DNA from: a virus
Virus record (IMG/VR): IMGVR_UViG_3300025168_000257
Coordinates: 1-36,772 of that record
Strand: one strand, 5' to 3'
DNA length: 36,772 bases
Below, piece by piece: positions 4,233 through 35,007 of this stretch; position 1 is the first letter of the stretch; every line of letters begins with the position of its first letter. Below the pieces are notes generated by a model that did not search any database, had not been told where the DNA came from, and saw nothing but the letters and a program-made list of their open reading frames with translations. Position numbers and translations under genes: made by a program.

Positions 4233-4234
4233 CT

Positions 4235-7666: not shown

Positions 7667-7683
7667 TTTAAAAATACAATAAT

Positions 7684-15781: not shown

Positions 15782-16708
15782 ATGGGTGCATATAAAACAG
15801 ATAATTCATTACACGTATTTGTTGGTACTGTAGATCTAGACCACAGCGAAACTTTGGCAGATTCAGTAACAAATCAAATTTGTATATTAAATGCTGATGG
15901 TAGTTCTATCGGCAACGGAACGGCAGCAATTGTAGATGGCACAAGAGTTTATGTAGCTATGAAAGATGCGGACGGTAATGTTCGTAAATCTCCTACATTT
16001 GAATTTAAAGCAGCAAATGTAAAAGGTTTAGCTTTTGGGGCAAGAACAGAGCAAACAACTACTTTAGATTTGTGTGACGATACTCCAAATACTCGTTACA
16101 CTTTGAGACTTAACTTTAAACATAATACAGAGTTATTCTCTAATCAATCTGATCAATACTTCTTCGAGTATACAACTGGTGATACAGTTACAGCTGGAGA
16201 AGTTATGACTAAATTTAGAGATAAAATTAATCTTCAAGAGAGTTGTAAAGATAAAGTTGTAGCAGCTTTAGATGGTACTGATGGTTTAACTATTCTTGGT
16301 AAAGCTCAAGACTGGAGTTTAGGTCTTCACGCTTACACTATGGTATTGTTTGATGTAACAATCGACGGATTTGCTTCAACAGCAACAAACGTTGTTACTG
16401 GTGCAGTTCATGGTTCTGGAGCAGGTGAAGAAATTGCAGAACTAGAATGGTTTGGTATAGGTTCAGCAGGAGCTCCTTATCGTCAAGGTATTCCTAGCAA
16501 TAACCACTTAGTTGCTCTTAATGCAGTGAGTACAGCTGAATACGATGTAGCTGTTATTGATACTCCATTAGAGGATCCTAAGTATGCGGTTGCGGGAGCA
16601 GGGGCAGGACGATGTCAAATAATTTTAGCTCAAGAAGTAAGTCTTACAGGTACTGAAATAGACAAAGTATTAGGATTTACAGATGGCGCTAATATTTTCT
16701 CGTCTTAA
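15782..16708 (+). CDS. Virion structural protein, 308 aa
   Basis: A soluble beta-rich chain starting MGAYKTDNSLHVFVGTVDLD. The middle has a helix-strand part (TVTAGEVMTKFRDKINLQES) and a strand series around LGLHAYTMVLFDVTIDGF. The C-terminal part is rich in glycine and alanine (GAGAGRCQIILAQEVSLTG). The protein is probably abundant: the gene uses many well-translated codons, is the last gene before a strong terminator and is only 35 bases after the previous one. A tail tube or major tail/sheath-like role is possible; no name is justified. Confidence 0.6.
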   Translation: MGAYKTDNSLHVFVGTVDLDHSETLADSVTNQICILNADGSSIGNGTAAIVDGTRVYVAMKDADGNVRKSPTFEFKAANVKGLAFGARTEQTTTLDLCDDTPNTRYTLRLNFKHNTELFSNQSDQYFFEYTTGDTVTAGEVMTKFRDKINLQESCKDKVVAALDGTDGLTILGKAQDWSLGLHAYTMVLFDVTIDGFASTATNVVTGAVHGSGAGEEIAELEWFGIGSAGAPYRQGIPSNNHLVALNAVSTAEYDVAVIDTPLEDPKYAVAGAGAGRCQIILAQEVSLTGTEIDKVLGFTDGANIFSS

Positions 16709-16776: not shown

Positions 16777-17358
16777 ATGGCTCTAGATTTAAAACTTAGT
16801 GTACAAACTACAGATGATTGTAAAAATTTAGTCATTGAAGATGTAACAGGTCTTTACAATGAAACAAGTAACCCAGGCGGGTGGGGAGGTTTTAATATAA
16901 ATGGAGATAGATCTGTATATAATTTATCTTTAAATTTAGTTGTGTATAATTTTATAGAGGGGGAGCAATATACAACTCCTATAAGCATTGATAATTTTGC
17001 AAACGATGTTATTTACCCTACAGAAGATACTTTTAGATCTTTTAAAATCTCTATACCTTCTTATGACATATCAACAGCTGTTGCTAATAGTAACACTATA
17101 AGTATTCCAGATAGTTATAATTCTATGCAAGAAGTTGTAGAAGATTGTTTATATGAAGTAATTGTTACAATAACAAGTAGCTCAACTAATTACAGTAGTA
17201 ACTCTAGTCTTACATATAAAAATATTTGCAACTCTAAAAAAATTGTAGATAGAATGATTAGTAAAATTAATTTAGGATGCGAAGATTGTAATGACTTTGA
17301 TATTGATAAAGCATTATTAGCCAAAAGTTTATTAGAAACTATAAAAAATATAGATTAG
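16777..17358 (+). CDS. Tail module protein, 193 aa
   Basis: The protein starts MALDLKLSVQTTDDCKNLVI and is mainly beta: the N-terminal half contains NPGGWGGFNINGD, YNLSLNLVVYNF and a short strand series. The C-terminus holds two Cys pairs (NICNSKK and LGCEDCNDFD) and an amphipathic helix DKALLAKSLLETIKNID. A similar helical end (KKIQGIKNLLNKTT) is found in the next protein, so these ends may be a shared docking element. Position at the start of the tail module suggests a tail-tip or baseplate-like subunit. The family is not recognised. Confidence 0.6.
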   Translation: MALDLKLSVQTTDDCKNLVIEDVTGLYNETSNPGGWGGFNINGDRSVYNLSLNLVVYNFIEGEQYTTPISIDNFANDVIYPTEDTFRSFKISIPSYDISTAVANSNTISIPDSYNSMQEVVEDCLYEVIVTITSSSTNYSSNSSLTYKNICNSKKIVDRMISKINLGCEDCNDFDIDKALLAKSLLETIKNID

Positions 17359-17359
17359 T

Positions 17360-18778
17360 ATGGCTCTAATTGATGGTTTAGACCGTAGAAATGTGTACTC
17401 AAAAGATATTAGTACTTTTGGGACACAACTGGCTAGTGCTAATTTTATAGGAGTAGATTTAAATGCTTATGAAACAAGTATTCAAAATACTATTTCTAAT
17501 TTTTTATCAGGAGCTCCTAGTAATTATAATTCTAATCAAGTAACTTTTCCTATAATATTTCATTTAGTAGTAGATCATCCATCAATAATTTCCAATGATC
17601 AAAATAATATAACATTTAATGTAACTAAATTATTACAAGACATAAATGAAGTTTTTTCTCAGGTAGGAGTTAGCTTTAATGCAGTAACAAAAGATGCTAA
17701 TGGAAACAATTTAGCAATTCCAGGTATTAATATAATAGATGCAAGTGATTTATTAAGTTCAAATAAATCTTACCCTGATAATGGAATTAGTATTAGCAGT
17801 ACAGTTTTTACTACTACTAATAGTGACCCTACTAATAATATAACTACTCTAGGATACCCTATAAATAATTTACATGATACCTATAGTTGGGATAATAAAG
17901 AGGTAATAAATGTTTTTTTGATAAATGATTTTTCACAAAACACTGACCTTTTATTAAATTCTTGCAATCCTTATATGTTTGATAACAATAGTAAAGCAAC
18001 TTTAAATATTACTCTTCCTTTTTATTGTTTGGGATCTTCTTTAGAATATGGTTATCAATACACTAGTAATACTGCTGCACAACTACATGTTTTTAATTCT
18101 ATTAATGACTTTAGTGCGGAGTTATATGCAAATAAATATCAATACTATGGTACAACAGATCATAAGGCTAAAGTTTTATTGCATGGGTTAGGTAATTTAT
18201 TAGGTTTAGCTCCGTCAAATACTTTTAACCCTATTGAGGTACAAACATCAACAGACAACGGGTACTCTGCAAATGCTTGCAATATTAATTGTATATATAC
18301 AGATTATGATTCTGCAGATTATTGTGCAAGTTGTGATGAGTTAGTCACTGTTAACAAAATTCAAAATCCTCTTTTTTCTGGAGACTCTGATATTGTTTGT
18401 GATGACAGTACTATTGAATCTTTACATAAAAATATAATGAATTTTTTTGTAGGGGGTACAGACTATAATTTTCAACCTTCCCAAATACTACGTATTAGGG
18501 CAAACTTAGGAATGCAATATATAGATACTGTTACATCAATAACTACTCCTGGAGTATTAATAAGACTTTTAAATACTAGCTTTGAAACTTATGGTGGTTA
18601 CCCTGTTGCAAGTGCTGAGTTATGTGACCAAGTAATAGATACAAATATTCAAAGAGTTACAAATTCTTCACTAGCTTATTCTAATATAATGGGTATTAAT
18701 ACTGCTAAGGCTGAAGTAGCTTTAACATTTTCTAAAAAAATTCAAGGTATAAAAAACTTACTTAATAAAACTACCTAA
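17360..18778 (+). CDS. Metzincin-like (M43-type) domain protein, inactive
   Basis: The 472 aa protein follows the plan of pappalysin-type M43 metalloproteases. An early strand TFPIIFHLVV (about 61-70) parallels the M43 VPVVFHV start. A helix follows (ITFNVTKLLQDINEVF), then EVINVFLIND. The zinc site position reads HGLGNLLGLAP (275-285) where M43 has HExxHxxGxxH. Only the first His and the Gly (G282) remain; the catalytic Glu is Gly and the other two ligands are Asn and Pro. The Met-turn is kept: KNIMNFF with M360, and then FQPSQILRIRANLG, the M43 FTxxQxxRMR part. It therefore retains the fold but not the metal or catalysis. It is probably a structural or binding protein of the tail. It lies 1 base after the 193 aa gene and overlaps the active paralogue by 1 base. 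Confidence 0.7.
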   Translation: MALIDGLDRRNVYSKDISTFGTQLASANFIGVDLNAYETSIQNTISNFLSGAPSNYNSNQVTFPIIFHLVVDHPSIISNDQNNITFNVTKLLQDINEVFSQVGVSFNAVTKDANGNNLAIPGINIIDASDLLSSNKSYPDNGISISSTVFTTTNSDPTNNITTLGYPINNLHDTYSWDNKEVINVFLINDFSQNTDLLLNSCNPYMFDNNSKATLNITLPFYCLGSSLEYGYQYTSNTAAQLHVFNSINDFSAELYANKYQYYGTTDHKAKVLLHGLGNLLGLAPSNTFNPIEVQTSTDNGYSANACNINCIYTDYDSADYCASCDELVTVNKIQNPLFSGDSDIVCDDSTIESLHKNIMNFFVGGTDYNFQPSQILRIRANLGMQYIDTVTSITTPGVLIRLLNTSFETYGGYPVASAELCDQVIDTNIQRVTNSSLAYSNIMGINTAKAEVALTFSKKIQGIKNLLNKTT

Positions 18779-21700
18779 TGGCAAAAGTTCCTTATACACA
18801 AATAAGTAAAAAAATTTCTGAGGGTCTTGGTTCTGCAAATAAAAATGCTGTAAATCTAGACTGCGGTAATGAATACCTTGTGTCAATTAATGATGGAAAC
18901 GATTCTACAGAATCAATGATTAGGCTTGCACTTAAAAGTATTTCTAAAAATTTTAGAGATTTGCCAGAGAATTGTGCAGACGGTAGTTGTGATACAGTAT
19001 ACGTTCCAGTTATTATTCATTTTCATGAGTACAATGATAATTATGGATTTGTTATTGATGTTACTAGACAACAAAAGTATGCAAAAGTTGCCTCTATTTT
19101 TGAAGCTTTAAATAGAGCTTTTAGAGGAGAGTATGATGCAACCAACGATTTAGACGTAGAACTACAATCAGTTATAGGACATAGACTTCCTGGAGAAGAC
19201 GAAGACCCTCCATCCCATCAGCTAAATACTGGTGTGGGAGGTGCTGTTTCATATACTAGACATTATCTTAGAGCAATTAAAGATATTAGCTATCCTACTA
19301 ATATTGCTACCTATAATACAGACTCTGGAGGATATGAAGAGGAGCTTGTGCCTCACAAAGATTTAAGAGAACTGTATCCTAATATACAATTTTTCTTTCC
19401 TGAAAGATTAAAAACAGAATATATTATAGAGGGGTTCTATAAAGAAAATACTGGATGTAAAGTTAATTTTCTAAACTTATTAAATACTATAGACAATACT
19501 GGTTTATTATTTTCAGATACTAGAGCCCTTTTAGATCAAGAGTATATGTATTTTGCTAGTGAGTTGCCTGGCGCTTTATTTTGGGATTCTAAAATATTAG
19601 ATTCTACATTTTTTGCTAAATTAAATACAGTACAACAAATACTTAATAGTAATACTAATGAAGTTAATATACAAAGTTTTAATATTAACTTTGGTTCGGC
19701 AGCAGATGGTGGTTTTGGTGCCCCATCTACCACAGGTACTGAGGGTGTGGACTGGGGAATTATTCAAAACTTTAGACCTAACAAGACAACAACAGGAGGG
19801 GCTCGCGATCTTATTTTTTCAGATTATACTTTTTCTATAAATACTAGTAGATATAAAAGTGCTTTTAGTGCTTACGGGACAACTACCCCTTACTCTAATG
19901 CAATTGTTAATCTAGGTCTTGATTTTAATCAGGATATTTTGCCCCAAACATTATTTCATGAATTTAATCACACACTAGGTAGTGTACATAGTTGGACTAT
20001 GCCTACAGTTTGTGGAAGTTACCTTGATGCGGATTCGTATTTAAATGAAGACGGGAGTTTAAAAAATGTAGGAGCTTATCAAAGTTTTCCAGGACTAAAT
20101 ACTATTAGCGGTAACATTCCTCCAGGAGAATCTTCTTATAATTCTTTTATGTTAAAAGAAGATTTTAAAGTTCCTTTTAACTACTCTGTAAAAGATCCTT
20201 TATATATTAAGAGAAAAAGATTGTATGACAAAGCTGTCCAAGATCTTAATGCTGCAGTGTTGCAAGACTACCAAAGTGCTGCTATTCCAGGAATAACTAG
20301 TGACTCAGATTATGAAGATTATATAGAAACTTTAGAAGAAAGAGTTGCTGAATATTCAAATAGTCTTAACGAAGTAAATGAATTTAATGTAGGAAATTTT
20401 TTAGATATAAGTGACGACGAAAAAGGTTATATAGAATATTTGTATAATACTTTTATTCCTAATATAACAAATAATTTTAATAGTAGAACAACTTTTATAA
20501 ATGGGGAGTTTGGAGTTTCTAATCCTGAAATAAATAGATCAGAAGACTATAATTTAAGCACAACATCTCTTAGATTAACTTTAGAGGATGTTATTTTTGG
20601 TATAAGTTCTTTTTGGGGAGGATCCTATATATTAAAAAACCCACCCACACTTAACTCAGGAGATGATTCTAATGGGTTTGTATTTAAAATAGAGGAACAA
20701 AAAGATATTCATTACTTTAGACCTACTGACATTCCTGGAGGGGACACTATTATTAGATACTCTCAGTTCTCAGATTACAATGATAATCCTTCTAATTTAC
20801 CTGAAGGTTGGAGTTTATTTACTGTAGACTCTCTCCAAAAATTTGTAGACAGTTTACCAGACCTATACCCTGAAGAAGAAAGTTTAACTGATATTTTAAA
20901 TATAATCTACCCTGAGTATGAAGCTTTAGCTTCAAGCATTATGGGTTTAAATTCTACTGTATTTAGTTTTTGGGTATCTACAGATACTACACTATCTGCA
21001 AATGAAATTGGTACTCAAGGGTCGTATGTTTTAATAAGTGATGATGGTGCACTCATACAGTCGGGTGTAAATATAAATAATTTGTCTCTTATTTGCCCAC
21101 TGCATAAAGTACATGACGCACTAGAAGATGATTCTATAGCTAAACAATTAGTTGTAAATCCTGCTAATGACGACGGTACTAGAAAAGGTCCTGATGTAAC
21201 AACACACATACCTTTTTGTGACATAGATGATGACAACAAATATGATCCTTATTGGATGCATAACTTTAATGCTTGGAATTCTAACTACACTGAGTACCCT
21301 AATAATACTCCAGTAGAAGATCTTATGCACGAAGACTATTGTCCTTGTTTACATCAAACACAAGTTTATCACGCTATAGATAATTCCTACGAGTTTAAAA
21401 TTATAGGAGGAGGTTCTTATGCGTGGGCAGCACACGCAGTAATGCATAATACTTTTGCAGATACTCAAATAGATTCTTTTACTTCTTCAATATCTGAAGT
21501 AAACACTGGTTTAAATTCTAGATCAAATACTTCTGTAGACCCAGATGATTACACAGATAAAATAGATTTTAACTATGGCTTATGGCTTTCTAATACTACT
21601 AATAGATATAAAGATGGTTATGATAACTCTGCTTTATACACTATAGGTAATATTACAGATATTGCATTATATAGATATTCAGACTCTGAATCTACTGTTT

Positions 21701-24615
21701 TAAACTTACCTATTTTTAATGGCTACTGCGGTTTTGGGTGGGGCTCTGTTTTACCTAAAGCTATAGAGTTAGATAAACAAAAATTTACAGAATTTTCAAA
21801 TGAAGAAAATGAATATATTTTAACCATTCCATCAGAATTTAATTTATTAAATACTGGTAATGCTTTTGATACAGATTTAAGATTGGGCCATAGAGGCCCC
21901 TCTGCTACTACTACAGATGATAATATTAGATCTAGGTATGATGTGGGAGGGGAAGATAATCCTTTATACCAGTATAGATCTAAAGTTTTAAGTTTAAGTG
22001 CTGACCCTGTTACGGTGTCTGAAACTTTTGAAAACGGTTTTCCTTTAACTGCAGATGTTTTAGATTATACTAGAGAACCTGTTCCTGATAATGGGTATTT
22101 TTCAGATTTATATGGCGAGTATAATCATTTTAATTTTAATCAAGTTTTACATTATAGGAAAAGTAATAATAATACAGCTTTAAATACTAAAACTGTATAT
22201 ATGCCGACAGCTAGAGTAAGAGCTGCAAACTATTATTTTAATGATACAAACGTAGATTTAGTTAATAATTATTTTGTAGTACATACAGAGCATCAGGAGT
22301 ATATCGAGGAGGTAATAGAAGAAGAAGAAGAGGAAGTAGCAGCATTACTTACTTTACCTCAAGTAGGAGATATAATTACTGAAGGTGGTATGGTAATAGA
22401 GATTAATGCGGATGGCTCAGGGGTGGTAGCTTTGTGGGGTACTAAAGGTAATACAGAAGGAGATTGGGTTCCTTTAAGTGAGGGTGAAACTTATGCAAAT
22501 CTTTTAGAAACTTCTAATAGAGTACCCGAAGGAAGCACAGTAGTTCCTACTGAGAATTATGTTTATTACCCTGATATACGAGGCAGAACTACAGAGCCTC
22601 TACTTACAATGAGTAATATGATAGGTGCACTTACGCAGAATGGATATGATGATTGGCGTGTTCCTTCTAGAGCAGAACTAATATCTTTAAATACTACTTC
22701 AGGATGGGACGCAGATAATAAAGCTTTTTTGAGAGCATCGTGGTCAAAATATATATGCCACATAGACGATACTCTTAAAAGAATAGATTTATTTGATATT
22801 CCTGCCTATGCAGCTTCTTCGCCCCCTGCTAGTCCTGCAAGAGGAAGGCCTGTTAGAGATTTTCAGCTTGATTTAAGCTTATACGAAGGGGAGGCGGGCG
22901 CAAGCTCTCGAGCAGTATCAAGAAATGTTAATACTGTAATATCTCAATTTGAAGAATTATATATACTTATAGCAGATCATTTTACTACTGATTTTGATCT
23001 TGAGTATAATGTTGGAGGATGTAATGATCCCGATGCATTTAATTATGATCCTAATGCCACTTATAATAATGGTACATGTGTAGACAGGGTATATGGATGT
23101 ATGCAATCTTGGTCTGATAATTATGCTATTGTAGATGACGATGGAAATGAAATTAATACAGATGACGGATCATGTTACACTACTATCTGTACTAATCCTG
23201 AAGCAACAGGAGATTATGGTGCAGGGTATAATTTAGATTTAGTAAACACAGTTAATGCTTACGCAGTAACTTATAACGAAACTGCTCTTATTGAAGCTGT
23301 CGATGGATTTACAACTGAACTTAATGAGGAGAATTACGAGGAATGTCAATTTACAAGTATACCTAGAAATTCTATTATAAGACTTGTTTGTGTTCCTTCA
23401 GATGAACTGGACACTGAGAGTTCTCCTGAAGTTTGTAATTATAATCCTGATATTACTTTTATTAGAGATCGTAGTACAAAAGATATTAGTAATTACACTA
23501 GTGATCCTGAACAAGTGTCTTTACCATTTTTAGATTTTATAAGAACAAACGCAGCAGACACTTCTTCTGAAGATATTCAATCTAAAGTTAAATTATTAAA
23601 TCATATAGTATACGGCGATAATTCACTTTTAGAATCTAATGATTGGCTTCAGTCAGGATTTAACATTTCAACTACGTTAGGAAACTCTTTTCCTTCAAAT
23701 GATATTACTGATAATATTGATACTATGGGTGAAGAAATTTCTAATAATCCTGAACATAGAATTAAACAAATTATTAGAGACTTTATTCTTGAGGGTTCGT
23801 TTAACTCTTCAGCAGCTGGACTGCAATACAATTGTGTTGAGAATCCTATACTACCTGATGGTACAGGAGGATGTTTTTTATATGCACCGTCTTTAGGAGA
23901 AGCTAATGATAGTGATTTAATTGCTAAATTTAAAGCATGTTCTGTAGGTCAAATACAAACAGCAAGTGCTTATGGTTGTACTAGTGAGCTTGTTTTTGAG
24001 GGTGGATTTATAGAAAGTGATGAATTTATTTCTAATCTAGCTGCATATCAAGCAGGTACAGGTTGTTCGGAAGGAGGGGAAACTCCAACTACTTTTTATA
24101 TTATTGGAGGAGATCTTGCATCTGAGTACGCAGATGTAGAACAGCAAAATGGAGTTATTATAAATGTTCTTAATTTACCTGTTTATTCTAGCACACAGCT
24201 AAGTAGCGTGGTTGGTGTTGGGTATTCTGAAGAGGTGTTAGACCTAAATTTAATTAGTGTTCGTAATTCAATATCTTTTAGAACTGGAAATCCTATTAGC
24301 ACTGCTATTTCAAGAAATTGTAATAACACTATATCTAATCCATTCCCTAATTCTTTTGAGGGATATTTGTATTTTGAAGACGGATCTGTTTACAATGGTG
24401 CAGAATGGGCTATAGAATTCAATGACTGTAGTAATGTATTTACTAAGTACAGTTACAACACTCCTGACAATACAAACCAAAAACTATATTATAGAAACGA
24501 GATTCTTAGAGGTTCAAACTTTAATGTAGCTCTTACAGATAAAGAATCTTTAGCCAAAAAAATGAGCAAAGTTATAAATAAAATTATTAATTTACCTATA
24601 TTTACCGACAATTAA
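18778..24615 (+). CDS. Giant virion metalloprotease with intact metzincin motif
   Basis: A 1945 aa protein. The start VYVPVIIHFHEYND (about 74-87) has M43 character. The zinc site HEFNHTLGSVH (394-404) is an exact HExxHxxGxxH. The probable Met-turn is EDLMHEDYCPC around M850, so about 400 residues are inserted between the two, including a coiled-coil part (about 475-545). Further on are an acidic stretch (about 1180-1190), a DUF1566/Lcl-type domain (about 1195-1350, YDDWRVPSRAELISL with W1293), a Cys repeat GC-x-DPDAFNYDPNATYNNGTC at 1414-1434 and a degenerate second repeat. No signal peptide is seen, which fits a virion protein. The enzyme may cut host surface proteins or matrix. The C-terminus ends in a helix as in its neighbours. 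Confidence 0.75.
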   Translation: MAKVPYTQISKKISEGLGSANKNAVNLDCGNEYLVSINDGNDSTESMIRLALKSISKNFRDLPENCADGSCDTVYVPVIIHFHEYNDNYGFVIDVTRQQKYAKVASIFEALNRAFRGEYDATNDLDVELQSVIGHRLPGEDEDPPSHQLNTGVGGAVSYTRHYLRAIKDISYPTNIATYNTDSGGYEEELVPHKDLRELYPNIQFFFPERLKTEYIIEGFYKENTGCKVNFLNLLNTIDNTGLLFSDTRALLDQEYMYFASELPGALFWDSKILDSTFFAKLNTVQQILNSNTNEVNIQSFNINFGSAADGGFGAPSTTGTEGVDWGIIQNFRPNKTTTGGARDLIFSDYTFSINTSRYKSAFSAYGTTTPYSNAIVNLGLDFNQDILPQTLFHEFNHTLGSVHSWTMPTVCGSYLDADSYLNEDGSLKNVGAYQSFPGLNTISGNIPPGESSYNSFMLKEDFKVPFNYSVKDPLYIKRKRLYDKAVQDLNAAVLQDYQSAAIPGITSDSDYEDYIETLEERVAEYSNSLNEVNEFNVGNFLDISDDEKGYIEYLYNTFIPNITNNFNSRTTFINGEFGVSNPEINRSEDYNLSTTSLRLTLEDVIFGISSFWGGSYILKNPPTLNSGDDSNGFVFKIEEQKDIHYFRPTDIPGGDTIIRYSQFSDYNDNPSNLPEGWSLFTVDSLQKFVDSLPDLYPEEESLTDILNIIYPEYEALASSIMGLNSTVFSFWVSTDTTLSANEIGTQGSYVLISDDGALIQSGVNINNLSLICPLHKVHDALEDDSIAKQLVVNPANDDGTRKGPDVTTHIPFCDIDDDNKYDPYWMHNFNAWNSNYTEYPNNTPVEDLMHEDYCPCLHQTQVYHAIDNSYEFKIIGGGSYAWAAHAVMHNTFADTQIDSFTSSISEVNTGLNSRSNTSVDPDDYTDKIDFNYGLWLSNTTNRYKDGYDNSALYTIGNITDIALYRYSDSESTVLNLPIFNGYCGFGWGSVLPKAIELDKQKFTEFSNEENEYILTIPSEFNLLNTGNAFDTDLRLGHRGPSATTTDDNIRSRYDVGGEDNPLYQYRSKVLSLSADPVTVSETFENGFPLTADVLDYTREPVPDNGYFSDLYGEYNHFNFNQVLHYRKSNNNTALNTKTVYMPTARVRAANYYFNDTNVDLVNNYFVVHTEHQEYIEEVIEEEEEEVAALLTLPQVGDIITEGGMVIEINADGSGVVALWGTKGNTEGDWVPLSEGETYANLLETSNRVPEGSTVVPTENYVYYPDIRGRTTEPLLTMSNMIGALTQNGYDDWRVPSRAELISLNTTSGWDADNKAFLRASWSKYICHIDDTLKRIDLFDIPAYAASSPPASPARGRPVRDFQLDLSLYEGEAGASSRAVSRNVNTVISQFEELYILIADHFTTDFDLEYNVGGCNDPDAFNYDPNATYNNGTCVDRVYGCMQSWSDNYAIVDDDGNEINTDDGSCYTTICTNPEATGDYGAGYNLDLVNTVNAYAVTYNETALIEAVDGFTTELNEENYEECQFTSIPRNSIIRLVCVPSDELDTESSPEVCNYNPDITFIRDRSTKDISNYTSDPEQVSLPFLDFIRTNAADTSSEDIQSKVKLLNHIVYGDNSLLESNDWLQSGFNISTTLGNSFPSNDITDNIDTMGEEISNNPEHRIKQIIRDFILEGSFNSSAAGLQYNCVENPILPDGTGGCFLYAPSLGEANDSDLIAKFKACSVGQIQTASAYGCTSELVFEGGFIESDEFISNLAAYQAGTGCSEGGETPTTFYIIGGDLASEYADVEQQNGVIINVLNLPVYSSTQLSSVVGVGYSEEVLDLNLISVRNSISFRTGNPISTAISRNCNNTISNPFPNSFEGYLYFEDGSVYNGAEWAIEFNDCSNVFTKYSYNTPDNTNQKLYYRNEILRGSNFNVALTDKESLAKKMSKVINKIINLPIFTDN

Positions 24616-24622
24616 TTCTACT

Positions 24623-25312
24623 ATGGCAATTACGATACAACAATTACAAGATAGGTATACAAAAGCTAACGCAGAGTTAGACTCTTATGGGATTAATATT
24701 TCAGATAAATTAGCTAATGGTACTGCTACAGCAAATCAAGTTAGAAAATTTAATTTAATGTCTGCTTGGATTTCATTTATATCAAGTAGGCTTACAGCCC
24801 CTATAGTTATGCAAGCTTCTGCTCCTTCTAGTATAATTTTAAATATACCTAGCTATGTTGAAGCTGATACAACTAGAGATATAACAATGGGAATAGAAAA
24901 TTCTTACGGACGATACATACCCATAATAAGTATTATTAATTATAATGTGGGTATCACACCAGATCCAGATATATATTATACTTATGACTTATTCAAAACA
25001 AATGTAAATCCACTTGCTTCTTATATAGATGAGCAGGGTATTAATAGAGGGGACTTTTCATTTAGTTTTTCTAATTCAAGTCCTACAACATTTACTTTAA
25101 ACTTCCCTCAAACTTCAGACTTTAATGGTCAAAAATTATCATGCAGTACTAATATAAACGCAGGTGATTACACAACATATTTGGCATCTTTACCTTCTTT
25201 ATCTAAAGGAGTTAATGAGTATAAGTTAGGACAATCTTTATCCTCTGAGGTTATGTTAAACTATAATAAAGCTTTAGAAGAGATAGCTATCGAACTTAAT
25301 ATTTCATACTGA
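24623..25312 (+). CDS. Tail module protein, 229 aa
   Basis: The N-terminus is helical (IQQLQDRYTKANAELDSYG), followed by a loop NGTATANQVRKFNLMSAWISF. The middle and end are beta: SSIILNIPSYVEADTTRDIT and FSFSFSNSSPTTFTLNFPQ, which fit strands of a sandwich. The C-terminal 25 residues are again helical. It lies between the giant protease and the tail-fibre gene. No catalytic motif, signal or membrane segment is present. It may be an adaptor holding the fibre. The family is unknown. Confidence 0.6.
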   Translation: MAITIQQLQDRYTKANAELDSYGINISDKLANGTATANQVRKFNLMSAWISFISSRLTAPIVMQASAPSSIILNIPSYVEADTTRDITMGIENSYGRYIPIISIINYNVGITPDPDIYYTYDLFKTNVNPLASYIDEQGINRGDFSFSFSNSSPTTFTLNFPQTSDFNGQKLSCSTNINAGDYTTYLASLPSLSKGVNEYKLGQSLSSEVMLNYNKALEEIAIELNISY

Positions 25313-25326
25313 TAAAAAATATAAAA

Positions 25327-26871
25327 ATGGCAAAAAAAATAAATTTACCTAAAGCTTATTCAAGCGCAAAAGGAGACTTAATAACTGTTTTACAGAACGG
25401 AGTTGAGAAAAATATAACTAAAAAAGATCTTCTTAAATATTTAGAAGATTCTGTTTCTACTATATCTAAAGATATAAATTCTCTTCAAAGACAAATTAGT
25501 AGAAAAACTATAGATAAAAATACACCGTCTTTTAATTCTGCAATATCTGCAAAGAGCCCAAAAGTTGCTAATCATCTTACAACTAAAGGCTATGTGGATA
25601 CTGCGTTACATAATGTAGTAAAAAATGACGGAACTACTAAACTAGTAAAGACTTTATCTTATAGAAATTCTCCCCCTTCTTTCACGGGTAATGATGTTGT
25701 CACTAAAAATTATATAGACTCCAGACTACAGCGAGCTTTAAAAACAGTTATTTCAATTGCAGGCCTTGATGGTTATCCTGAGGCATCTATGGGAGATACT
25801 TTTATTGTTACAAATAACATAGATCGTTACGCAGTAGATGGTCCTGAAATACAGGAAGGAGATTTACTTATATGTTTAGAGTCTTCTGTTGGCGGAGCAC
25901 ATAGTGCTGTAGGGCATCAATTTGCTATTTTAAATACAAACATAGTTAATGCTGACACTACCTCTGCAGGTATAATAAGAGTGGCCACGGAAGATGAGGT
26001 ATTAGGTTTTAATTCAGACGACTCTGCAGTAACTCCAGTAAGTTTAAAAACAGTAATTGAATCGGGGAGTGAGTATAGTAGAATTCAAGTAGTTACTCCA
26101 ACCTACAGTATACTAGAAGAAGACAAAGGTATTATAGGTGTAGATACTTCTAACCATTCTATTACTTTAACATTACCGTCTATAGGAAGATTACTCCAAC
26201 CTAAAATTGTAAAGTACGTTATTAAAGATGAAAGTGACAGTGCATCTAAAAATACTATTAAAGTTGTAGCTTCGGGAGGTAATACTATACAGGGTAAAAG
26301 AACTGTTATTTTGTCTACTAATGGAGAATCTCTTAAATTATATAATGATGGGAGCAACAAGTGGTATAAAGAAAGTAATGTAAGTTCTTCAGGTTCTGGG
26401 GGTGTAGGTTCAGGAGTTAAAACATTTAATACTTCGAATGTAACTACTGGTGAAAGAGCTCTTACTACAGGGGCTTATGAATCAGTAATGAGTATAGATA
26501 TAGATTTATCTGAGTATCCTATAGGAACAGGATTTAAGGTTGTATCGCATTGTAAAGCCGCAGCAACCAGTAACGCTAAAAAAATTGCTATAGGATTAAA
26601 TGGTTCTCAAAAACTAGAATCTAGTTTAACAGGTACTACTTCACCTAATGATAAATTTATTCATCATGAATTAACAGTTATGAATTCTGACACTCCAACT
26701 ACAATGGCATTTGGTTTTGTTATGATAGGAGCAGATGATACATCTACAGGGTTTAGTAACGATTCTGAGTTTGATTGGAATAGTATTATAACAATTAGCC
26801 TTGATGTTTTAGCAGCAACAGCTGCAACAGATGTTGATGTATATGCATTACAAATATTACCTTTGAGATAA
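25327..26871 (+). CDS. Tail fibre-like protein
   Basis: A 514 aa protein with typical fibre elements. N-terminal helical part 1-60 (KKDLLKYLEDSVSTISKDIN). HLTTKGYVD (about 85-93) and VVTKNYIDSRLQ (about 122-133) are fibre repeat ends of the xKGYVDxxL kind. NADTTSAGIIRVATEDEVLGF (about 208-228) with DDSAVTPVSLKT matches the tail-fibre repeat TxxGIVxxATxxEVxxGxxDxxAVTP found in many phages. The segment 250-340 has YKESNVSS and a glycine hinge GSGGVGSGV. A C-terminal beta sandwich (about 365-514) is likely the receptor-binding head. The protein is expected to be trimeric and to bind the host surface. Confidence 0.75.
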   Translation: MAKKINLPKAYSSAKGDLITVLQNGVEKNITKKDLLKYLEDSVSTISKDINSLQRQISRKTIDKNTPSFNSAISAKSPKVANHLTTKGYVDTALHNVVKNDGTTKLVKTLSYRNSPPSFTGNDVVTKNYIDSRLQRALKTVISIAGLDGYPEASMGDTFIVTNNIDRYAVDGPEIQEGDLLICLESSVGGAHSAVGHQFAILNTNIVNADTTSAGIIRVATEDEVLGFNSDDSAVTPVSLKTVIESGSEYSRIQVVTPTYSILEEDKGIIGVDTSNHSITLTLPSIGRLLQPKIVKYVIKDESDSASKNTIKVVASGGNTIQGKRTVILSTNGESLKLYNDGSNKWYKESNVSSSGSGGVGSGVKTFNTSNVTTGERALTTGAYESVMSIDIDLSEYPIGTGFKVVSHCKAAATSNAKKIAIGLNGSQKLESSLTGTTSPNDKFIHHELTVMNSDTPTTMAFGFVMIGADDTSTGFSNDSEFDWNSIITISLDVLAATAATDVDVYALQILPLR

Positions 26872-26877
26872 TAAGAT

Positions 26878-29800
26878 ATGATACAGAGTTTAAGAAATGC
26901 AATAAACGATGGTAAAACTACAGGAAGCCCTGTAGCGATAGAACTTAAATACTCATTACAAGATTTAAGTTCTATTGTTGTAGATCATCCTACATTAGTA
27001 AATGTAAAAATTATACCTGGTACTTATATAACTGAAGAACAATTTAAACTAGAAGTGTTTAATGCTTTTACTCAGTGGCAAGTTTTATTTAATTCTTTGT
27101 ATCAAGACTACGTTCAATTAACTTTTGTTTCTAGTAAATCTACTTCTGATATAAGTATTAATTTTAATGCATCTCTAGTTCCATTATTTTCTGTAACAAA
27201 TACTTCTATACAACTAAACTTAGGAATAAACTGGTCTATTATAAATCAAGTTGGAGGCTTATCTCTTTTAAATTACTTGGTTCAGAGTATAGGAAAAACT
27301 TTAAGTGTTGCAGAAACACTTGTACTTTCTCCTATGAATCCTTCTAATCTAGGACTTAATTATATAAATCTTTTTGGGTTAACTGTTTTAGAAGATGGTA
27401 TTTTATCTGCAGGCTATTTAAATAATTATAGTTCTATAAGTAATAATATTGTAAATATATACGGATCGAGTAATAGTGCAATTCCTTACATATTAGGATG
27501 CACAAATCCTTTAGCTAGTAATTATGATTCTTTAGCTACTGTAGATAATAATACTTGTATAATTCCTGACACTGAAACTTTATCTTATAATAGAGATAAT
27601 GTAATTTATAATGCAGATGGAGATCAATATTATTTAGCTAACAATCAAACTGTATATGCTATTATTGCAGATACTTTTGGGGATAGCAATGCTAGTACTA
27701 TACAAGATACGAGTGGAAGTAATACATCCCTACCTTTAACTATATCAGATACTGTTCCTTTTACTTCTTTAGTTATTACAGATAAAGAAGCAAGTATTTA
27801 TGGAGATAGTATTGGCACAATTAGGTATTATATTGTAGCTTCTCAAGCTGGCGACATTCAGATATTTAATAAAGATGGACTTCTTTTATCAGCAAGCACT
27901 GATACAGCTCAAAGTTTTACGTTTGCTAACGAATCTATATCTCCATTACAATATCTTTCTCATTTTAATTTTAATTACAAATATTTAGGGGAGGGAAAAC
28001 ATGATGTTAAATGGTTTAGCAAGAATGGAGACTTTAATAGAATAGTTTTAAATGATTCTATAGCTCAACAGAATGCTGCTGGAGAGGTAATAGCTGCATG
28101 TGATTTAGACACTTATACTTATGGTAATGCTGAAAGCGTAAATTATAGAAGTGTGAAGCCATTATCAGACAGTCTGGGAGCCCATATAAGTGTCACAGAA
28201 AGTGGAAAAATTTCTACTTCTAATGAAACTTCCCTACCTATTTTATATTCTAATGTTATAAAAAATAACTCAAATTTTAATTCATTCGACGGTGAGTTTT
28301 TGGTTGATGTTTTAAACTTTGACAATAATAAATTTTCTGAAGCATCTACAATAAATTTAAAATCTTTTATTGTACCAACTTTTACTGGGGACTTTGCAGT
28401 GTATGTAGATTTAAGAGCGAATTTTTTACAGATAGCAAGAGCAGATTTATCTATAACAGAATCAGATAATATATATAGTGTATGGGTAGGAGATTCTAAA
28501 ATTAATAATTTAGATGATGGAGAGTTTGATTTCTCTAATGTAGATTATAATTTTGATGGTGATGGGTCTAGTCTTTCTGAGGTTAGAAATACTGCGGCAG
28601 ATTTACACCCAGCATTTAGTGAAAATAATAATACTATTGTATTAAGACCTTTTAGTTTAGGTTTTAGTTTTGATAGTGATGGACTTGATGCTTTAAGTAA
28701 TAAAGAGTGGGAGGCAGGAGAATTTAAAAATGGAGAATCTGAAGTAGATGAAGCTGCTTATGGCCAAATAGTAGTTTCTATTGGTAATAAATTATGTAAA
28801 AATTCTTTTTTCTCTGACACTACCACACTTAGTTATAGAGCTTGGGCATGTCCTAGTGGTAGTAGTTTTGCTACCAACTACCAAATATTTAATGAAAGTT
28901 TTTCAAACTCGGTTGATTTAATAAATAATACTTTTAATGATTTTAATCATATTGGAGATTTTCATTTAGCTATTGGTGTTAGTCATGGATTTATTCTAAC
29001 TAAGATTAACAATACAAACTTTTCTTTAGTTTCTCCAACCACAGAAGGTGGGCTAGAGATACATGTTCCAGGAGGTAAACCTGATATGGAAAACTTTAAT
29101 GGAGGTTGGCGTCCAGTCTCTATGCAGTTCTCTCCAAATGACAATTTTTTGTATACTATAATGGCTAATCCTGATGATGATACTGATAGAAAAATAGTAA
29201 TATATAATATATACGCAGGAAATGCTCAGTTTGGGTGCACCGACGCACAGTTGTCTACATCCATATCAGATACAGCAGTAGTAGTAGAGACATCAGATAT
29301 TGTTTATGAAAAAATAACTTTGCAAGATGATGGTAGTATATACATATGGTCAGAGTCACAAGACTATATAAAAATTACAGACCCTGATTTATTAGCATCT
29401 GTAAATTTATTTGAGTTCTATCCTACAAACTACATGTATACCAGATCTGGTTTAGAATATTTTCCCTCTTCTTCCTACGGTACAACTACCGAGTATGTCT
29501 CTGGCGTTTCTATATTTGATACTCTAGAGAATGGGTTAGACTTTGGACCCACTGATCCTAGAACAATATATTCTAATGTATATAATTCTAGTTCTGTAGG
29601 TCCTGGCATTGGAGAAGGAATTACGGCTATTAATAACTATGATTTTAATTCAAAAGTTATTGGGTCAGGATTTACTTATGATGTAGTTTCAGATTTTTTA
29701 ACATCTAATACAGAAACTAATACTGAAAGTATAATTGCAGTTGCAACCCAAACATCTAATGGTGGAGAGTTAAATACTGTATTATATTTAACAGCAGATT

Positions 29801-32800
29801 CTTCAAATAATGTTTCTATAAAGGAATATGATGGAACTACTTTAACTACGGATGACGCGTTTACTAATTTAGATTCTAAAGATTCAATATTTATTTTTCC
29901 ATTAAGAAATTTAAATGATGTTTATATGTGCGGTTATGTAGGAAAAAGAAATGCTGCAAATGGTTCAACACATATTATATTTAGAAATATTTCTGTTACT
30001 CCCGATATAACATCTTCGTATAACTATAGTGAGGGTCCGCTATCATATTCATCATTTTCATTAAGTGATGATACTACCCAAGTTATTCCAGGAAATAAAC
30101 TTATAGAACGCACTTCTGAAGGAGTTGTATTAGCTACAACTTCTTATGAAAAAACACAAGGTACAAATGAAGAAATTCCTACTGTAGATAGTAATAATAG
30201 GATAAGTATTAAACTTAAATTTTATGTAAAAAATTATAATGTAGACAATTGGCAAAACGATGCCGTTGGCACAATTGTACATCAGTTAGGTGAAAATAAA
30301 TTAACCGACAATGAAGATAATACATTCTCACTTTCCGCAGGATCATTTGTTCATACTAATATTTCTGTATCTCAAGACTCTTCTCTTATAGCTATTGCTT
30401 CAATGATTAAAGGAGAAGAAAATATAACTGAATGTGTTATTAGTGTATATAATTATACTGAGAATCCTGCCGTAGGGCAATCTCCTATTCATGGGGGTCG
30501 GGTAGGTAATACATTAAAGTTTACATCTGAAGATTTTTTAATAGACGAAGATTTAAACAAAATGTACGACACTGTTGTTAGAGGTTTAGAGTTTTCTCAA
30601 GACTCCTCTAAGCTGTATGTTTTATTTGGTAAACACCAAACTGCAAACGACTCTAGTAATTTTTATACAAGCGATAATATTAATATTCTTACAAAAACTA
30701 ATAGAGTATTAAGGTTAGCAGTAGATACTGAAGAAAATACATTTAAGCTTGATGGCCCGTTAAATGAGCCTACACAGTTTTCACAACCTAGCAGATTAGC
30801 AGGGTCTTTTATGACTTATGATGCTGACGGTCTTTCTACTCAAGGAAATAGCACCCACAGAAATAACACTGCTATGACAGGATTATTTCTTAACTCCTCA
30901 GGTAATATTTATATATCTAATATTCAAAATTCAGATGACTATGTATATTCTTTGGGAGTTATTACCCAGCCTGACGATAGTGTATCTTCTAGATTAAATA
31001 GAACTGCTGCAATAAAACTTTACAATCCTGACGAAGAAGAACGTATTGTTGATGGCTCAATAGGATTTCCTTTAAATATTAATCAAGTACATAGGGTAGC
31101 AGATCCTTCTTTTGAAGCTATAGATCCAGGAACTCCTAATGCAGAAGCGGTGGAGGTATACGGATGTACAGATGGAACGGCTGCTAACTTTGATGAATTA
31201 GCAACTATTAATGATGGTTCATGTTCATACCTAGAGATACAAAATGAAGATTGTGAAGGTAACTGTGAACCAATTATATTTGATCCCGCTCAAGTTCCTT
31301 TAGTTAATAGTACTATGCAAGCCTTAATCAACGCTAATTCTAGCGGAGTAGGTTCTGAAAGAGAATTAGTTATAGATCCTTTGCCAGATCAACTTATAAG
31401 TTTATACACTTGTGATAAAAATACTATTTGTGGCTGTCAGGCTGTTTATTACTTTACAGTAAGTTATACTATAGATACTTTAGATGGAAGTGTTACAAAT
31501 AATCCTTGGGTAATGCCAGATTCAAGCACTTCTATAATAACTGTATCTGCAAATTTTGTATACATACCTATTGTAGATAGTTTAGGAAATCTTTTAGCTA
31601 ATTACCCAGGAGAAAGTACTAACGAATATAGTAATTTTGTAGGAGTGGATCCTGCAAACTTTTTCTTAGAAGAAGACTACGTAGAGGATTATTGTTTAAC
31701 ATGCACTGATTCCAGCGCTCCTAATTTTACATCGGACGGAGAAGTTACTCCTGCGGATTGTGAAACTTACACACCATTTTGTATACCTGATAATGGGATA
31801 GAAGCTGACGCTTGCGGAAAGTATGGTTGTACAGATTCAGTAGCATGTAATTATGATGAAGAGGCTACTCATGACAACGGTAATTGCACATACGAACCTA
31901 CAGGTATTAATGATTATGGCTACAGTATAGATGATATTTGTAATTGTAATGGATTTACTCCAGGATATAATTCTGCAGACTATTGCGGCGATTGCGACAC
32001 TGCCGAAGGTAGAGCAAATTTAAGATTAAAATCTGACACTCCTGGATGTGATTGTGATTCAAATCCACTTGAATTTACTGGCGGAGGATATTACGGAGAC
32101 TGTTCTGGTTTACAACCAACTGTTACAAATATAGCTTCTAATTGTTATTATAATATTTCTGGGGTATTAACTCCAGAGGATGGTACATATCTTAATAACT
32201 CTTGCGACTGTGAAGGAACTTTACCCACAGGCAGTAATTGTGATTGTTTTGACAATTTATCAGACGACCAAACACAATGCGATTGTGATACTGCTGTGTC
32301 TGTATATTATCCAGATCCAGATAATAATGGTTACGCAAGTTGTGACTTACCTGCTATAACTGTTTGCCAAAAAACAGCTACCTCTGCTACTTTTCATGAT
32401 ATGGAAAGTGCTAGTGATGGAGATTGGGTGGATATAATTACAGGAAATGTTTACACTCAAAGTGAAATAAATAGCGATTACATAGTAGGCCCAGTTAATG
32501 CTGGGCAGTGTGAACAATGTGCCACAGAAGGTCCTAATGGGGAAGAGCAGCAATACAATTCTTGTATTACAGAACTTGTATCTGATGCACCTAACTGTCT
32601 TTATTTATATAATTCTGAGACCGAACAAGCATATGTAAATCCTAATTATAACGATTATTATTTTAATGATGACTGCCAAGAATGTATGGCGGAAGGAAAT
32701 GATCAATGTTGTAATAAAGATGCTGCTGGTAATTCTATTAATGATGCTTGTGGTCAATGCATAAATCTAGTAGCACCAAATGGAGTTACTGTAACAGATA

Positions 32801-35007
32801 ATCAAGATGGGACATTTACAGCAGTACATAATAATGCTGCGGCAAACACTTCTACTGGACCTTGTAACTACTGTCAGACGTCTGGAGGGCCAGTAAGCTC
32901 ATCTTACACTCCTAATGCAGAACAATTTATATCTGATATGGCTAATTGGGAACATGATGATTGCCAGCAATGTGGTGGAGATAATGTTCGTTTGCAAACA
33001 GACGCAGACAGATTCCAAGGGTATATATATTCTGAGACTAATAATAGTGGTTATAAATGTAATTGCTCGATAGAAAATTATTATCCCTTAACATTCCTAG
33101 AAAGTAGCTTAATAAACGGAACATTAAATTGTTGCGAGGGTTACTATTGGGATGCTTGTGCTTTTAATGGACAGGGGGGATGTATAGATACCGATGTTGA
33201 TTCTATAAGTAAAGACTGTAACAACGAGTGTTATCAACAAGATACAGATGGAAATTATACTGTTGCTATTCATTCTTATTCTCCTATATGCCAAGAGTGT
33301 AATGAAGGTGGAGCTGACAGCCTTAATGCTGCTGGATGTTGTGATGGTAGAGAAGAAGGATGTCAAGCTTCTGCAGACTTAGATGGATGTTTTGAATCAG
33401 GAACAGCTCCAGAATTTGATGAGTGTGCAGTTTGTGGTGGAGATAATTCTACGTGCACAGGATGTACAGATCCTGAGGCATTTAATTACGTCGAAGGTAA
33501 CACTATAGATGATGGTAGTTGTAATACATCTAGTTTGTACGGAGCTATAAACTCAGTACAATTTACTCCAGGGGGTCAAGTTGCAGTTGTAGAGGAAGCA
33601 TATTATTTAGATATTAATTTAGCTTCTGCTAATATTCAAGAAATTAATAATAATCCCGTATCTGTATTAGATCAAGATTTAACAGAATTACAGGGTACTA
33701 ATATATACATAGACCAACCTAGTTACACACAAAAATGTCAAGTTATTAGTTACAGTAATAGAGTGTTATATCTAACTAATCCTTTACAAAATGCAGAGGT
33801 GTATTATACGGGCTTACCTTCTATTGGTAACAGTATTGTTCAGAATGAATCATACCAATCTATTGATTATGAAAATGGCGCATCTTTAAGTTACACTGCT
33901 GCATATTATTTTAGAGTTAAAGAAAATATAGAATTAACCCAGTCTGATATAGAGATATTATTTGCTTCTGTTTCCAGTCAAATTGAATCTATTTCTATAG
34001 CTAGCGGATTATCTTACATACCTACAAGTAATCAAAGCAATTTAGGAAATATAGTACAAGAAGATTCAGGAACTACAATACCAGACTCTGATTCTCCATC
34101 TGTTACTGCGGAAGTATACACTGTTTATAAAATAATTCCAAAAATTGGAAACAACGGAAAACCTTTTGCGTTTACTTTTGATTTTTCTAATTTTATGAAT
34201 ATTCCTATTCCAGGTTGTATGGATCCAGAAGCAACTAATTATAATCCTTCAGCAACATATACCGACGGGTCATGTAATTATGAAGTAATACCAGACGAGT
34301 TTAATTTAACAATTAAAGGAAACGCTGATGATGTTTCTAAATTAAAATGGGTTTTATATAATGATAACAATCAAATAGTTAATTCTAATTTTGGAGACTA
34401 TCCTGCAACTTTTAGCAGTACTAATGAGTATAGTTTAGATTTAAACACTAGTTCTTCTTGTATGTATTTTGTACCTATAGGATTTACTAGCAATGATAAT
34501 TGGCAACAAGTTTCTTTTACTATAAGTTTAAACTCAGAAAAAATATTTAGTGCTGTTAATGGTATAGAAACTATAGGAGCAACACGGACGGATATCAGAC
34601 TATCTACAAATAACAGAGGGGCAGCACTTATTAAATTAGGTAATGCTAATTGTTCTTTAGGTTGTAATTCTTTACATGTTCCTAATGAAATATCTACAGA
34701 TTATTGTAAAGCTATAGCAAGAAAAGATGTTAAAGAATTTACAGATATATACTTTAAATTAGAAGTGAACGCTTTACCGCAGGACGAAGATAGTTTTTTA
34801 GTTGAGGTTTACGATTTAAACACAGGAGATTTATTATTAGAAATTGAATCAGAAGAACTTGCTGTCCAAGATCCTAAAATTAGACAATTTGCAATAGATA
34901 AAGAAACTAGAATAGGTGTTAGAATTAAAAACGAGGAAAGTCTTATTTTAAAATATGAGATAACTTCTGAGTACGGAGAAACAATAATTAAAAAGACCTT
35001 AAACTAA
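26878..35007 (+). CDS. Giant adhesin-like virion protein with degenerate matrixin domain
   Basis: A 2709 aa protein. Residues about 20-175 follow the matrixin (M10) plan: VFNAFTQWQVLF, then VQLTFVSS and DISINF, a zinc position reading QSIGKTLSVAE (136-146) in place of HExGHxxGxxH, then SPMNP (Met-turn, M153) and LEDGILSAGYL. All three His and the Glu are lost, so it is a dead protease fold. Five GC-x-DP Cys repeats lie at 207-227, 1429-1449, 1650-1670, 2195-2215 and 2446-2466. Residues about 600-1430 have propeller-like repeats (SPNDNFLYTI at 752, SQDSSKLYVLF at 1240). Residues 1450-2215 are Cys-rich with many CxxC and ECAVCGGDNSTC. No signal peptide is seen. It is probably a long tail adhesin. 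Confidence 0.7.
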   Translation: MIQSLRNAINDGKTTGSPVAIELKYSLQDLSSIVVDHPTLVNVKIIPGTYITEEQFKLEVFNAFTQWQVLFNSLYQDYVQLTFVSSKSTSDISINFNASLVPLFSVTNTSIQLNLGINWSIINQVGGLSLLNYLVQSIGKTLSVAETLVLSPMNPSNLGLNYINLFGLTVLEDGILSAGYLNNYSSISNNIVNIYGSSNSAIPYILGCTNPLASNYDSLATVDNNTCIIPDTETLSYNRDNVIYNADGDQYYLANNQTVYAIIADTFGDSNASTIQDTSGSNTSLPLTISDTVPFTSLVITDKEASIYGDSIGTIRYYIVASQAGDIQIFNKDGLLLSASTDTAQSFTFANESISPLQYLSHFNFNYKYLGEGKHDVKWFSKNGDFNRIVLNDSIAQQNAAGEVIAACDLDTYTYGNAESVNYRSVKPLSDSLGAHISVTESGKISTSNETSLPILYSNVIKNNSNFNSFDGEFLVDVLNFDNNKFSEASTINLKSFIVPTFTGDFAVYVDLRANFLQIARADLSITESDNIYSVWVGDSKINNLDDGEFDFSNVDYNFDGDGSSLSEVRNTAADLHPAFSENNNTIVLRPFSLGFSFDSDGLDALSNKEWEAGEFKNGESEVDEAAYGQIVVSIGNKLCKNSFFSDTTTLSYRAWACPSGSSFATNYQIFNESFSNSVDLINNTFNDFNHIGDFHLAIGVSHGFILTKINNTNFSLVSPTTEGGLEIHVPGGKPDMENFNGGWRPVSMQFSPNDNFLYTIMANPDDDTDRKIVIYNIYAGNAQFGCTDAQLSTSISDTAVVVETSDIVYEKITLQDDGSIYIWSESQDYIKITDPDLLASVNLFEFYPTNYMYTRSGLEYFPSSSYGTTTEYVSGVSIFDTLENGLDFGPTDPRTIYSNVYNSSSVGPGIGEGITAINNYDFNSKVIGSGFTYDVVSDFLTSNTETNTESIIAVATQTSNGGELNTVLYLTADSSNNVSIKEYDGTTLTTDDAFTNLDSKDSIFIFPLRNLNDVYMCGYVGKRNAANGSTHIIFRNISVTPDITSSYNYSEGPLSYSSFSLSDDTTQVIPGNKLIERTSEGVVLATTSYEKTQGTNEEIPTVDSNNRISIKLKFYVKNYNVDNWQNDAVGTIVHQLGENKLTDNEDNTFSLSAGSFVHTNISVSQDSSLIAIASMIKGEENITECVISVYNYTENPAVGQSPIHGGRVGNTLKFTSEDFLIDEDLNKMYDTVVRGLEFSQDSSKLYVLFGKHQTANDSSNFYTSDNINILTKTNRVLRLAVDTEENTFKLDGPLNEPTQFSQPSRLAGSFMTYDADGLSTQGNSTHRNNTAMTGLFLNSSGNIYISNIQNSDDYVYSLGVITQPDDSVSSRLNRTAAIKLYNPDEEERIVDGSIGFPLNINQVHRVADPSFEAIDPGTPNAEAVEVYGCTDGTAANFDELATINDGSCSYLEIQNEDCEGNCEPIIFDPAQVPLVNSTMQALINANSSGVGSERELVIDPLPDQLISLYTCDKNTICGCQAVYYFTVSYTIDTLDGSVTNNPWVMPDSSTSIITVSANFVYIPIVDSLGNLLANYPGESTNEYSNFVGVDPANFFLEEDYVEDYCLTCTDSSAPNFTSDGEVTPADCETYTPFCIPDNGIEADACGKYGCTDSVACNYDEEATHDNGNCTYEPTGINDYGYSIDDICNCNGFTPGYNSADYCGDCDTAEGRANLRLKSDTPGCDCDSNPLEFTGGGYYGDCSGLQPTVTNIASNCYYNISGVLTPEDGTYLNNSCDCEGTLPTGSNCDCFDNLSDDQTQCDCDTAVSVYYPDPDNNGYASCDLPAITVCQKTATSATFHDMESASDGDWVDIITGNVYTQSEINSDYIVGPVNAGQCEQCATEGPNGEEQQYNSCITELVSDAPNCLYLYNSETEQAYVNPNYNDYYFNDDCQECMAEGNDQCCNKDAAGNSINDACGQCINLVAPNGVTVTDNQDGTFTAVHNNAAANTSTGPCNYCQTSGGPVSSSYTPNAEQFISDMANWEHDDCQQCGGDNVRLQTDADRFQGYIYSETNNSGYKCNCSIENYYPLTFLESSLINGTLNCCEGYYWDACAFNGQGGCIDTDVDSISKDCNNECYQQDTDGNYTVAIHSYSPICQECNEGGADSLNAAGCCDGREEGCQASADLDGCFESGTAPEFDECAVCGGDNSTCTGCTDPEAFNYVEGNTIDDGSCNTSSLYGAINSVQFTPGGQVAVVEEAYYLDINLASANIQEINNNPVSVLDQDLTELQGTNIYIDQPSYTQKCQVISYSNRVLYLTNPLQNAEVYYTGLPSIGNSIVQNESYQSIDYENGASLSYTAAYYFRVKENIELTQSDIEILFASVSSQIESISIASGLSYIPTSNQSNLGNIVQEDSGTTIPDSDSPSVTAEVYTVYKIIPKIGNNGKPFAFTFDFSNFMNIPIPGCMDPEATNYNPSATYTDGSCNYEVIPDEFNLTIKGNADDVSKLKWVLYNDNNQIVNSNFGDYPATFSSTNEYSLDLNTSSSCMYFVPIGFTSNDNWQQVSFTISLNSEKIFSAVNGIETIGATRTDIRLSTNNRGAALIKLGNANCSLGCNSLHVPNEISTDYCKAIARKDVKEFTDIYFKLEVNALPQDEDSFLVEVYDLNTGDLLLEIESEELAVQDPKIRQFAIDKETRIGVRIKNEESLILKYEITSEYGETIIKKTLN

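Follow-up and report, generated by a model that had tools for sequence, protein, structure and literature searches.

The trimeric fibres of Crassvirales attach to the tail hub through the N-terminus of the fibre, as in the case of gp22 of crAss001 (PMC10172136), and the spikes of these phages have been reported to carry glycosyl hydrolase, phosphatase and CHAP domains (PMC10136315). Fibre and spike clusters such as crAss001 gp22-gp26 and phi14:2 g081-g087 bring fibres and surface-degrading enzymes together at the tail hub. The locus described here is of the same kind, but in place of those enzyme domains the window (the whole stretch of DNA that was analysed, a linear virus record from IMG/VR, 36,772 bases long) encodes a putative zinc protease and two dead lookalikes, named below by their lengths of 1945, 472 and 2709 aa.

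The M43 pappalysins (ulilysin, mirolysin, PAPP-A/PAPP-A2) resemble the 472 aa protein in collinear segments and in predicted fold; the 472 aa family, however, always lacks the catalytic Glu, has partly lost the zinc ligands and lies in a phage fibre locus. The matrixins (M10A; MMP12, MMP9, karilysin) resemble residues 1-200 of the 2709 aa protein in predicted fold, in the position of the zinc-site helix and in the SPMNP turn, whereas the latter form the N-terminal module of a giant phage protein and have neither the Glu nor three ligands in 12 sequences. Myroilysin, fragilysin and serralysin share HExxHxxGxxH and its flanking strands with the 1945 aa family, in which, in contrast, the site lies amid a CPCL region and a large amount of sequence, and no Met-turn was found.

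Metzincin folds that have lost catalysis are also known. ADAM11, ADAM22 and ADAM23 are animal pseudo-metzincins. Like the dead domains of the window, animal pseudo-metzincins combine a metzincin fold with a substituted zinc site, theirs being kept for binding; they are, however, secreted or receptor proteins of cells, whereas those of the window lie in a phage tail locus and are paired with a live protease. The inactive PII metalloproteinases of snake venom are likewise pseudo-metzincins (PMC5086652). In Listeria, a phage-derived metzincin gene adjoins a gene for a TIMP-like partner (PMC8235301), and here, as in the window, a metzincin has a neighbouring partner, but that partner is not a dead metzincin and the pair is secreted rather than encoded in a tail locus. 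Our literature search for metzincins, pseudoproteases or M43 proteins in the tails of crAss-like or other phages found no described case.

The window and its relatives

Judged by its marker genes (major capsid, auxiliary capsid and ring proteins), the window is a piece of a Crassvirales genome, and its capsid protein is 34% identical to that of the gut crAss phage cr10_1. The genes of the structural region are as follows.

11943..13379, + strand, major capsid protein (Crassvirales), used as the anchor for relatives (Pfam Crass_capsid E 3.4e-130, whole-length match)
14278..15018, + strand, tail ring protein 3/4 (Pfam CrAss_Ring_3_4 E 1.1e-18)
15782..16708, + strand, auxiliary capsid protein (Pfam crAss_AuxCP E 3.8e-9)
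16777..17358, + strand, 193 aa conserved protein directly upstream of the dead/live pair (homologues in ~30 related contigs)
17360..18778, + strand, 472 aa dead M43 (pappalysin-like) pseudo-metzincin (profile A1 and AlphaFold2 model)
18778..24615, + strand, 1945 aa giant protein whose zinc-protease site is intact (invariant site residues; profile matches to metzincins)
24623..25312, + strand, 229 aa protein in a conserved position (same place in L001, L076, L078-L081)
25327..26871, + strand, 514 aa tail-fibre protein with an N-terminal segment of Crassvirales type (PHROG tail collar fibre E 1.4e-6)
26878..35007, + strand, 2709 aa giant protein, fibre-like and bearing GC.DP.A.NY repeats (relatives of 2240-3300 aa at the same place)

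No relatives came up when the 472 aa and 1945 aa proteins themselves were used as queries. Since the protein sequences of the locus diverge fast, relatives were gathered through the capsid gene, which yielded 66 related loci, ~22 of them extending to the gene after the 193 aa protein. With four proteins as queries, tblastn gave no match in annotated phages, and a scan of genome contigs with the capsid protein gave no link to any host.

All of the ~22 relatives that reach the position after the 193 aa gene have a 472 aa-type gene there. The live protease gene is next in contigs that are long enough, where it mostly overlaps or abuts the dead M43 gene (in the window, the two overlap at TAATG), and longer contigs continue with proteins of ~230 aa, ~510 aa and then 2240-3300 aa. 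This order (dead M43, live protease, ~230 aa protein, ~510 aa fibre, giant protein with dead matrixin) is kept in every relative contig of sufficient length. The dead M43/live pair is absent from two more distant loci, L045 and L055 (capsid identity 75% and 67%), which have other proteins at its position, some with collagen-like repeats.

On one side of the locus are the Ring_3_4 and auxiliary capsid genes. Its other side is seen in a relative of 95 kb (G014), where the equivalent region is followed by an M15 peptidase and by the Ring_2, Ring_1 and muzzle proteins; the last three were matched in L083. Because the ring and muzzle genes of G014 come after the equivalent region, the window locus falls within the structural module, between the capsid and the tail-barrel genes. 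The N-terminus of the 514 aa family matches that of cr10_1 gp53 (E 3.3e-5 against a small set of ORFs), and its likeness to crAss001 gp22 was seen by eye and was not significant. Comparison of the 193 aa and 514 aa proteins with crAss001 gp38 and with phi14:2 proteins gave no significant match; the 193 aa protein is possibly tail-hub-like, by visual resemblance alone. Gene content and order support the view that the locus occupies the tail-fibre position of Crassvirales.

Elsewhere in the window, a 195 aa gene on the reverse strand is separated from the forward structural genes by ~1.8 kb (850-2636) that holds small ORFs only, with no tRNA found, and the contig end (35988-36741) holds a series of short ORFs (43-78 aa) very rich in lysine. 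A 3564 aa ORF of the 95 kb relative (L084:1-10692) contains HEAFHVVMGKF, an HExxH that does not fit the metzincin pattern.

The three metzincin-related proteins

The original prediction had described one live and two dead metzincin-like proteins in this locus, and the three open reading frames and all the quoted motifs were found at the claimed places. When the window proteins were scanned singly, Pfam gave no M43 or M10 match and PHROG no metzincin, and family profiles and structure were therefore needed to see the metzincin signal. The inputs to structure modelling left out the loci from whole records (L068-L075).

The 1945 aa protein has the following features.

19957..19989, + strand, zinc site HEFNHTLGSVH, residues 394-404 (exact HExxHxxGxxH)
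20176..20178, + strand, F467, the only invariant residue past the zinc site (invariant column of alignment A2, context [PV]PF.Y)
21142..21417, + strand, region conserved across the 1945 aa family, residues 789-880, with a CPCL motif
22636..22752, + strand, segment like Lcl_C (DUF1566) (Pfam Lcl_C E 8.1e-4, under the curated cut-off)

When the 1945 aa protein was shuffled 20,000 times, the exact motif turned up in 3 of the shuffles, and so it is not due to chance. A search of 28 related records for the motif as a DNA pattern found exactly one copy in each of 17 records, and 0 matches when the pattern was reversed. The zinc site was found again in 18 related contigs, mostly as the sole such site; in one further relative, L009, it reads HEYMHGAISGNH and is longer by one residue. 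H394, E395, H398 and H404 are invariant in 17 relatives, in an alignment (A2) with only eight invariant columns. The profile of the live family matches myroilysin (E 1.1e-6, ~140 residues), fragilysin (E 1.3e-5) and also serralysins in the PDB.

A Met-turn was found in the 1945 aa protein neither by eye nor by pattern. The region of residues 789-880 was considered as a Met-turn and rejected, its Met not being conserved; F467 could, speculatively, be a candidate substitute for the Met-turn Met. The failure to find a Met-turn, together with very large insertions around the zinc site in this family, would suit a giant adhesin in which the zinc site is structural or serves binding and which is not a protease. 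However, the His, Glu, His and His are invariant in a family that has otherwise diverged to ~15% identity, and the myroilysin match spans the length given above, so that we consider such an adhesin highly improbable. Further along the protein, the Lcl_C-like segment is a possible ligand-binding domain.

The 472 aa protein has lost the same motif.

18182..18214, + strand, degenerate zinc site HGLGNLLGLAP, residues 275-285 (family without Glu)
18431..18445, + strand, Met-turn-like NIMNF, residues 358-362, followed by M43-like F.P.Q..R..AN (aligned with the pappalysin/ulilysin Met-turn region)

Its M43-like character, as proposed at the outset, is borne out by profile and model alike. Profile A1, made of 15 relatives, matches pappalysin-2 (E 8.3e-6), pappalysin-1 and ulilysin (E 4.7e-4) in the PDB, and the alignment with ulilysin is collinear over four stretches, namely the first strand, a W....NIF segment, the zinc-site region and the Met-turn with F.P.Q..R..A. 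Pfam Peptidase_M43 is matched by 4 of the 15 members (best E 1e-4). An AlphaFold2 model of the 472 aa protein (pTM 0.72, core blocks at pLDDT ~80-90) has promirolysin as its best PDB match (E 1.5e-6, probability 1.00), followed by PAPP-A2, mirolysin and ulilysin; the TM-scores are moderate (0.53-0.57 on mirolysin) and the loop after the zinc site is of low confidence. Homology, fold and Met-turn thus place the protein with M43, but HExxHxxGxxH with its Glu is absent. Since the site reads HGLGNLLGLAP and the catalytic Glu is missing from 23 of 23 family members whose zinc-site residues were compared, the 472 aa protein is a pseudo-member and not an active M43 peptidase.

The 2709 aa protein opens with a domain of a similar state.

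26878..27477, + strand, dead matrixin-like domain, residues 1-200 (AlphaFold2 model: MMPs, karilysin)
27283..27315, + strand, degenerate zinc site QSIGKTLSVAE, residues 136-146
27328..27342, + strand, Met-turn-like SPMNP, residues 151-155 (S/T-PM-N/S conserved in most relatives)

Relatives of this N-terminus are present in 9 of 22 records, with more found by profile, and 2 of the 9 match Pfam Peptidase_M10 weakly (best E 0.0081). An AlphaFold2 model of residues 1-200, built from 7 sequences (pTM 0.71, mean pLDDT 67), matched MMP12 first (E 1.9e-4), then MMP9, MMP1 and karilysin, with probability 1.00, TM-scores on the target of up to 0.67 and MMPs making up nearly all of the first 30 matches, in agreement with the predicted matrixin-like nature. 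Residues 1-200 have the matrixin fold and the Met-turn of M10 and lack HExxHxxGxxH; in all 12 alignable sequences the site is dead, with no Glu and no three-ligand set. A lectin match of the matrixin-like profile was weak, a match to MPEG1 covers the Cys repeat alone, and both were set aside, the fold search having given MMPs. An unrelated fold for either dead domain had been named beforehand as speaking against the proposal; structure prediction gave a metzincin fold for both.

The Cys repeat just mentioned, GCTDP.A.NYNP.AT.DDGSC, is ~25 residues long and is found in the 1945 aa and 2709 aa proteins and in a small gene at 35007-35327 (window positions 23017, 27496, 31162, 31702, 31825, 33460, 34213 and 35052). 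It forms long arrays in relatives (L085 ORF 8018-10513, 832 aa), and a PDB search matched the segment to part of MPEG1 from mammals (E 7e-4).

Origin and upkeep of the dead domains

The original prediction held that neither dead protein can bind zinc. This is fair for the window proteins, but five relatives of the 472 aa protein keep three potential ligands without the Glu: H,H,H in L015, L034 and L056 and H,H,D in L037 and L033. In the tree of the dead M43 family, which has a number of long branches and some uncertain joins, the zinc site of the window clade is mostly K..x..H..x and that of another clade mostly H or N..S or N..P. The simplest reading would be that the Glu was lost once, early, and the zinc ligands later and repeatedly. 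In the three members with H,H,H the Met-turn has lost its Met as well, a residue that many members with broken ligands retain.

One source offered for the dead domains, along with recruitment, had been gene duplication in the locus itself, after which two copies decayed. In its favour, a 95 kb relative (L049/L081) has a genuine tandem duplication of the live protease gene (L081:165-3983 and 3974-7690, 34% identical), each copy with an intact zinc site (HELGHSFTLSH and HELGHTFALKH), and hhalign linked the dead M43 family weakly to the live one at the N-terminal first strand (E 1.5e-4, probability 52%). The dead-M10 profiles, however, gave no match to the live family and a faint one to dead M43, and the dead state is old and common to all relatives found. 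Because the two dead domains best match different metzincin families, M43 and M10, separate recruitment is the likelier half of that proposal, and we regard local duplication as improbable.

Nor do the dead domains look like tolerated remnants without function, although their catalytic residues are gone, their sequences diverge fast (~18-37% pairwise identity) and the closest dead M43 pair, L037/L044, has a dN/dS of 0.84, which could mean weak constraint. The dead M43 frame is open in 22 of 22 relatives with the gene at the same position, the core strands are kept, and the Met-turn motif is present in most. The dN/dS of the dead domains ranges over 0.27-0.84, below 1 and near the 0.39 of the one comparable live pair; as dS is close to saturation in most pairs, these values tell merely that the dead domains are not drifting freely. 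Taken with the open frames, they leave a vestigial state with very little credibility in our estimation.

Possible roles at the tail

The observation behind the original prediction was confirmed, and its interpretation is partly supported. That the live/dead arrangement is kept in relatives suggests that the dead copies have a job of their own, such as binding. We consider it reasonably probable that the locus is a tail-fibre module in which one protease is accompanied by conserved pseudoproteases used for binding or assembly. It would serve as a tail-fibre and receptor-binding locus whose enzyme is a zinc protease instead of a polysaccharide-degrading enzyme. The 1945 aa protein would then be the working protease and may act during adsorption by cutting proteins of the host surface or extracellular ones, and a tail-borne protease of this kind could open or trim a host surface protein. 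The M43 fold of the 472 aa protein and the matrixin fold at the N-terminus of the 2709 aa protein would be long-inactive metzincins retained as non-catalytic modules. From gene coupling, the 472 aa protein is most likely a binding or holding partner of the co-translated protease or of its substrate; from its N-terminal placement, the matrixin-like domain may join or dock the giant fibre to the tail apparatus.

The gene position in the structural module suggests that the three proteins are part of the virion. In the cultured marine phage phi14:2, genes at the same position are annotated as virion proteins by MS/MS, one of them a pectate lyase; no sequence relatives of the metzincin proteins were detected in phi14:2, and the argument from this phage is therefore positional alone. 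A more ambitious, lineage-wide version, in which the dead metzincins of two families would set the substrate choice, attachment or activity of a virion protease/pseudoprotease machine, is put forward only tentatively.

The dead domains might instead be structural scaffolds or attachment domains unlinked to the protease, with the live protease possibly acting in virion maturation. The surrounding gene clusters are structural, and the dead matrixin forms the N-terminal end of a fibre-like giant; in L086 it is a stand-alone 253 aa gene (L086:2431-3189) with one Cys repeat at its end and, being a separate gene there, is a movable module. On the other hand, the dead M43, a gene of its own, adjoins or overlaps the live gene in almost every contig that shows both, and the three potential zinc ligands kept in several relatives would be needless in a bare scaffold, which makes the scaffold account rather unlikely.

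Pseudoenzymes and tail enzymes are both known, and it is the conserved dead/live/dead set of metzincins in an apparent phage tail locus that appears to be new. The family also offers a natural series, from the full live site through three ligands without the Glu to no ligands, of which we found no published case in a phage setting and which may inform on what remains for an enzyme fold to do once catalysis has gone. The tail enzymes reported for crAss-like phages act on polysaccharides or the cell wall; a conserved tail-locus zinc protease, if true, would mean that some crAss-like phages work by way of a host surface protein.
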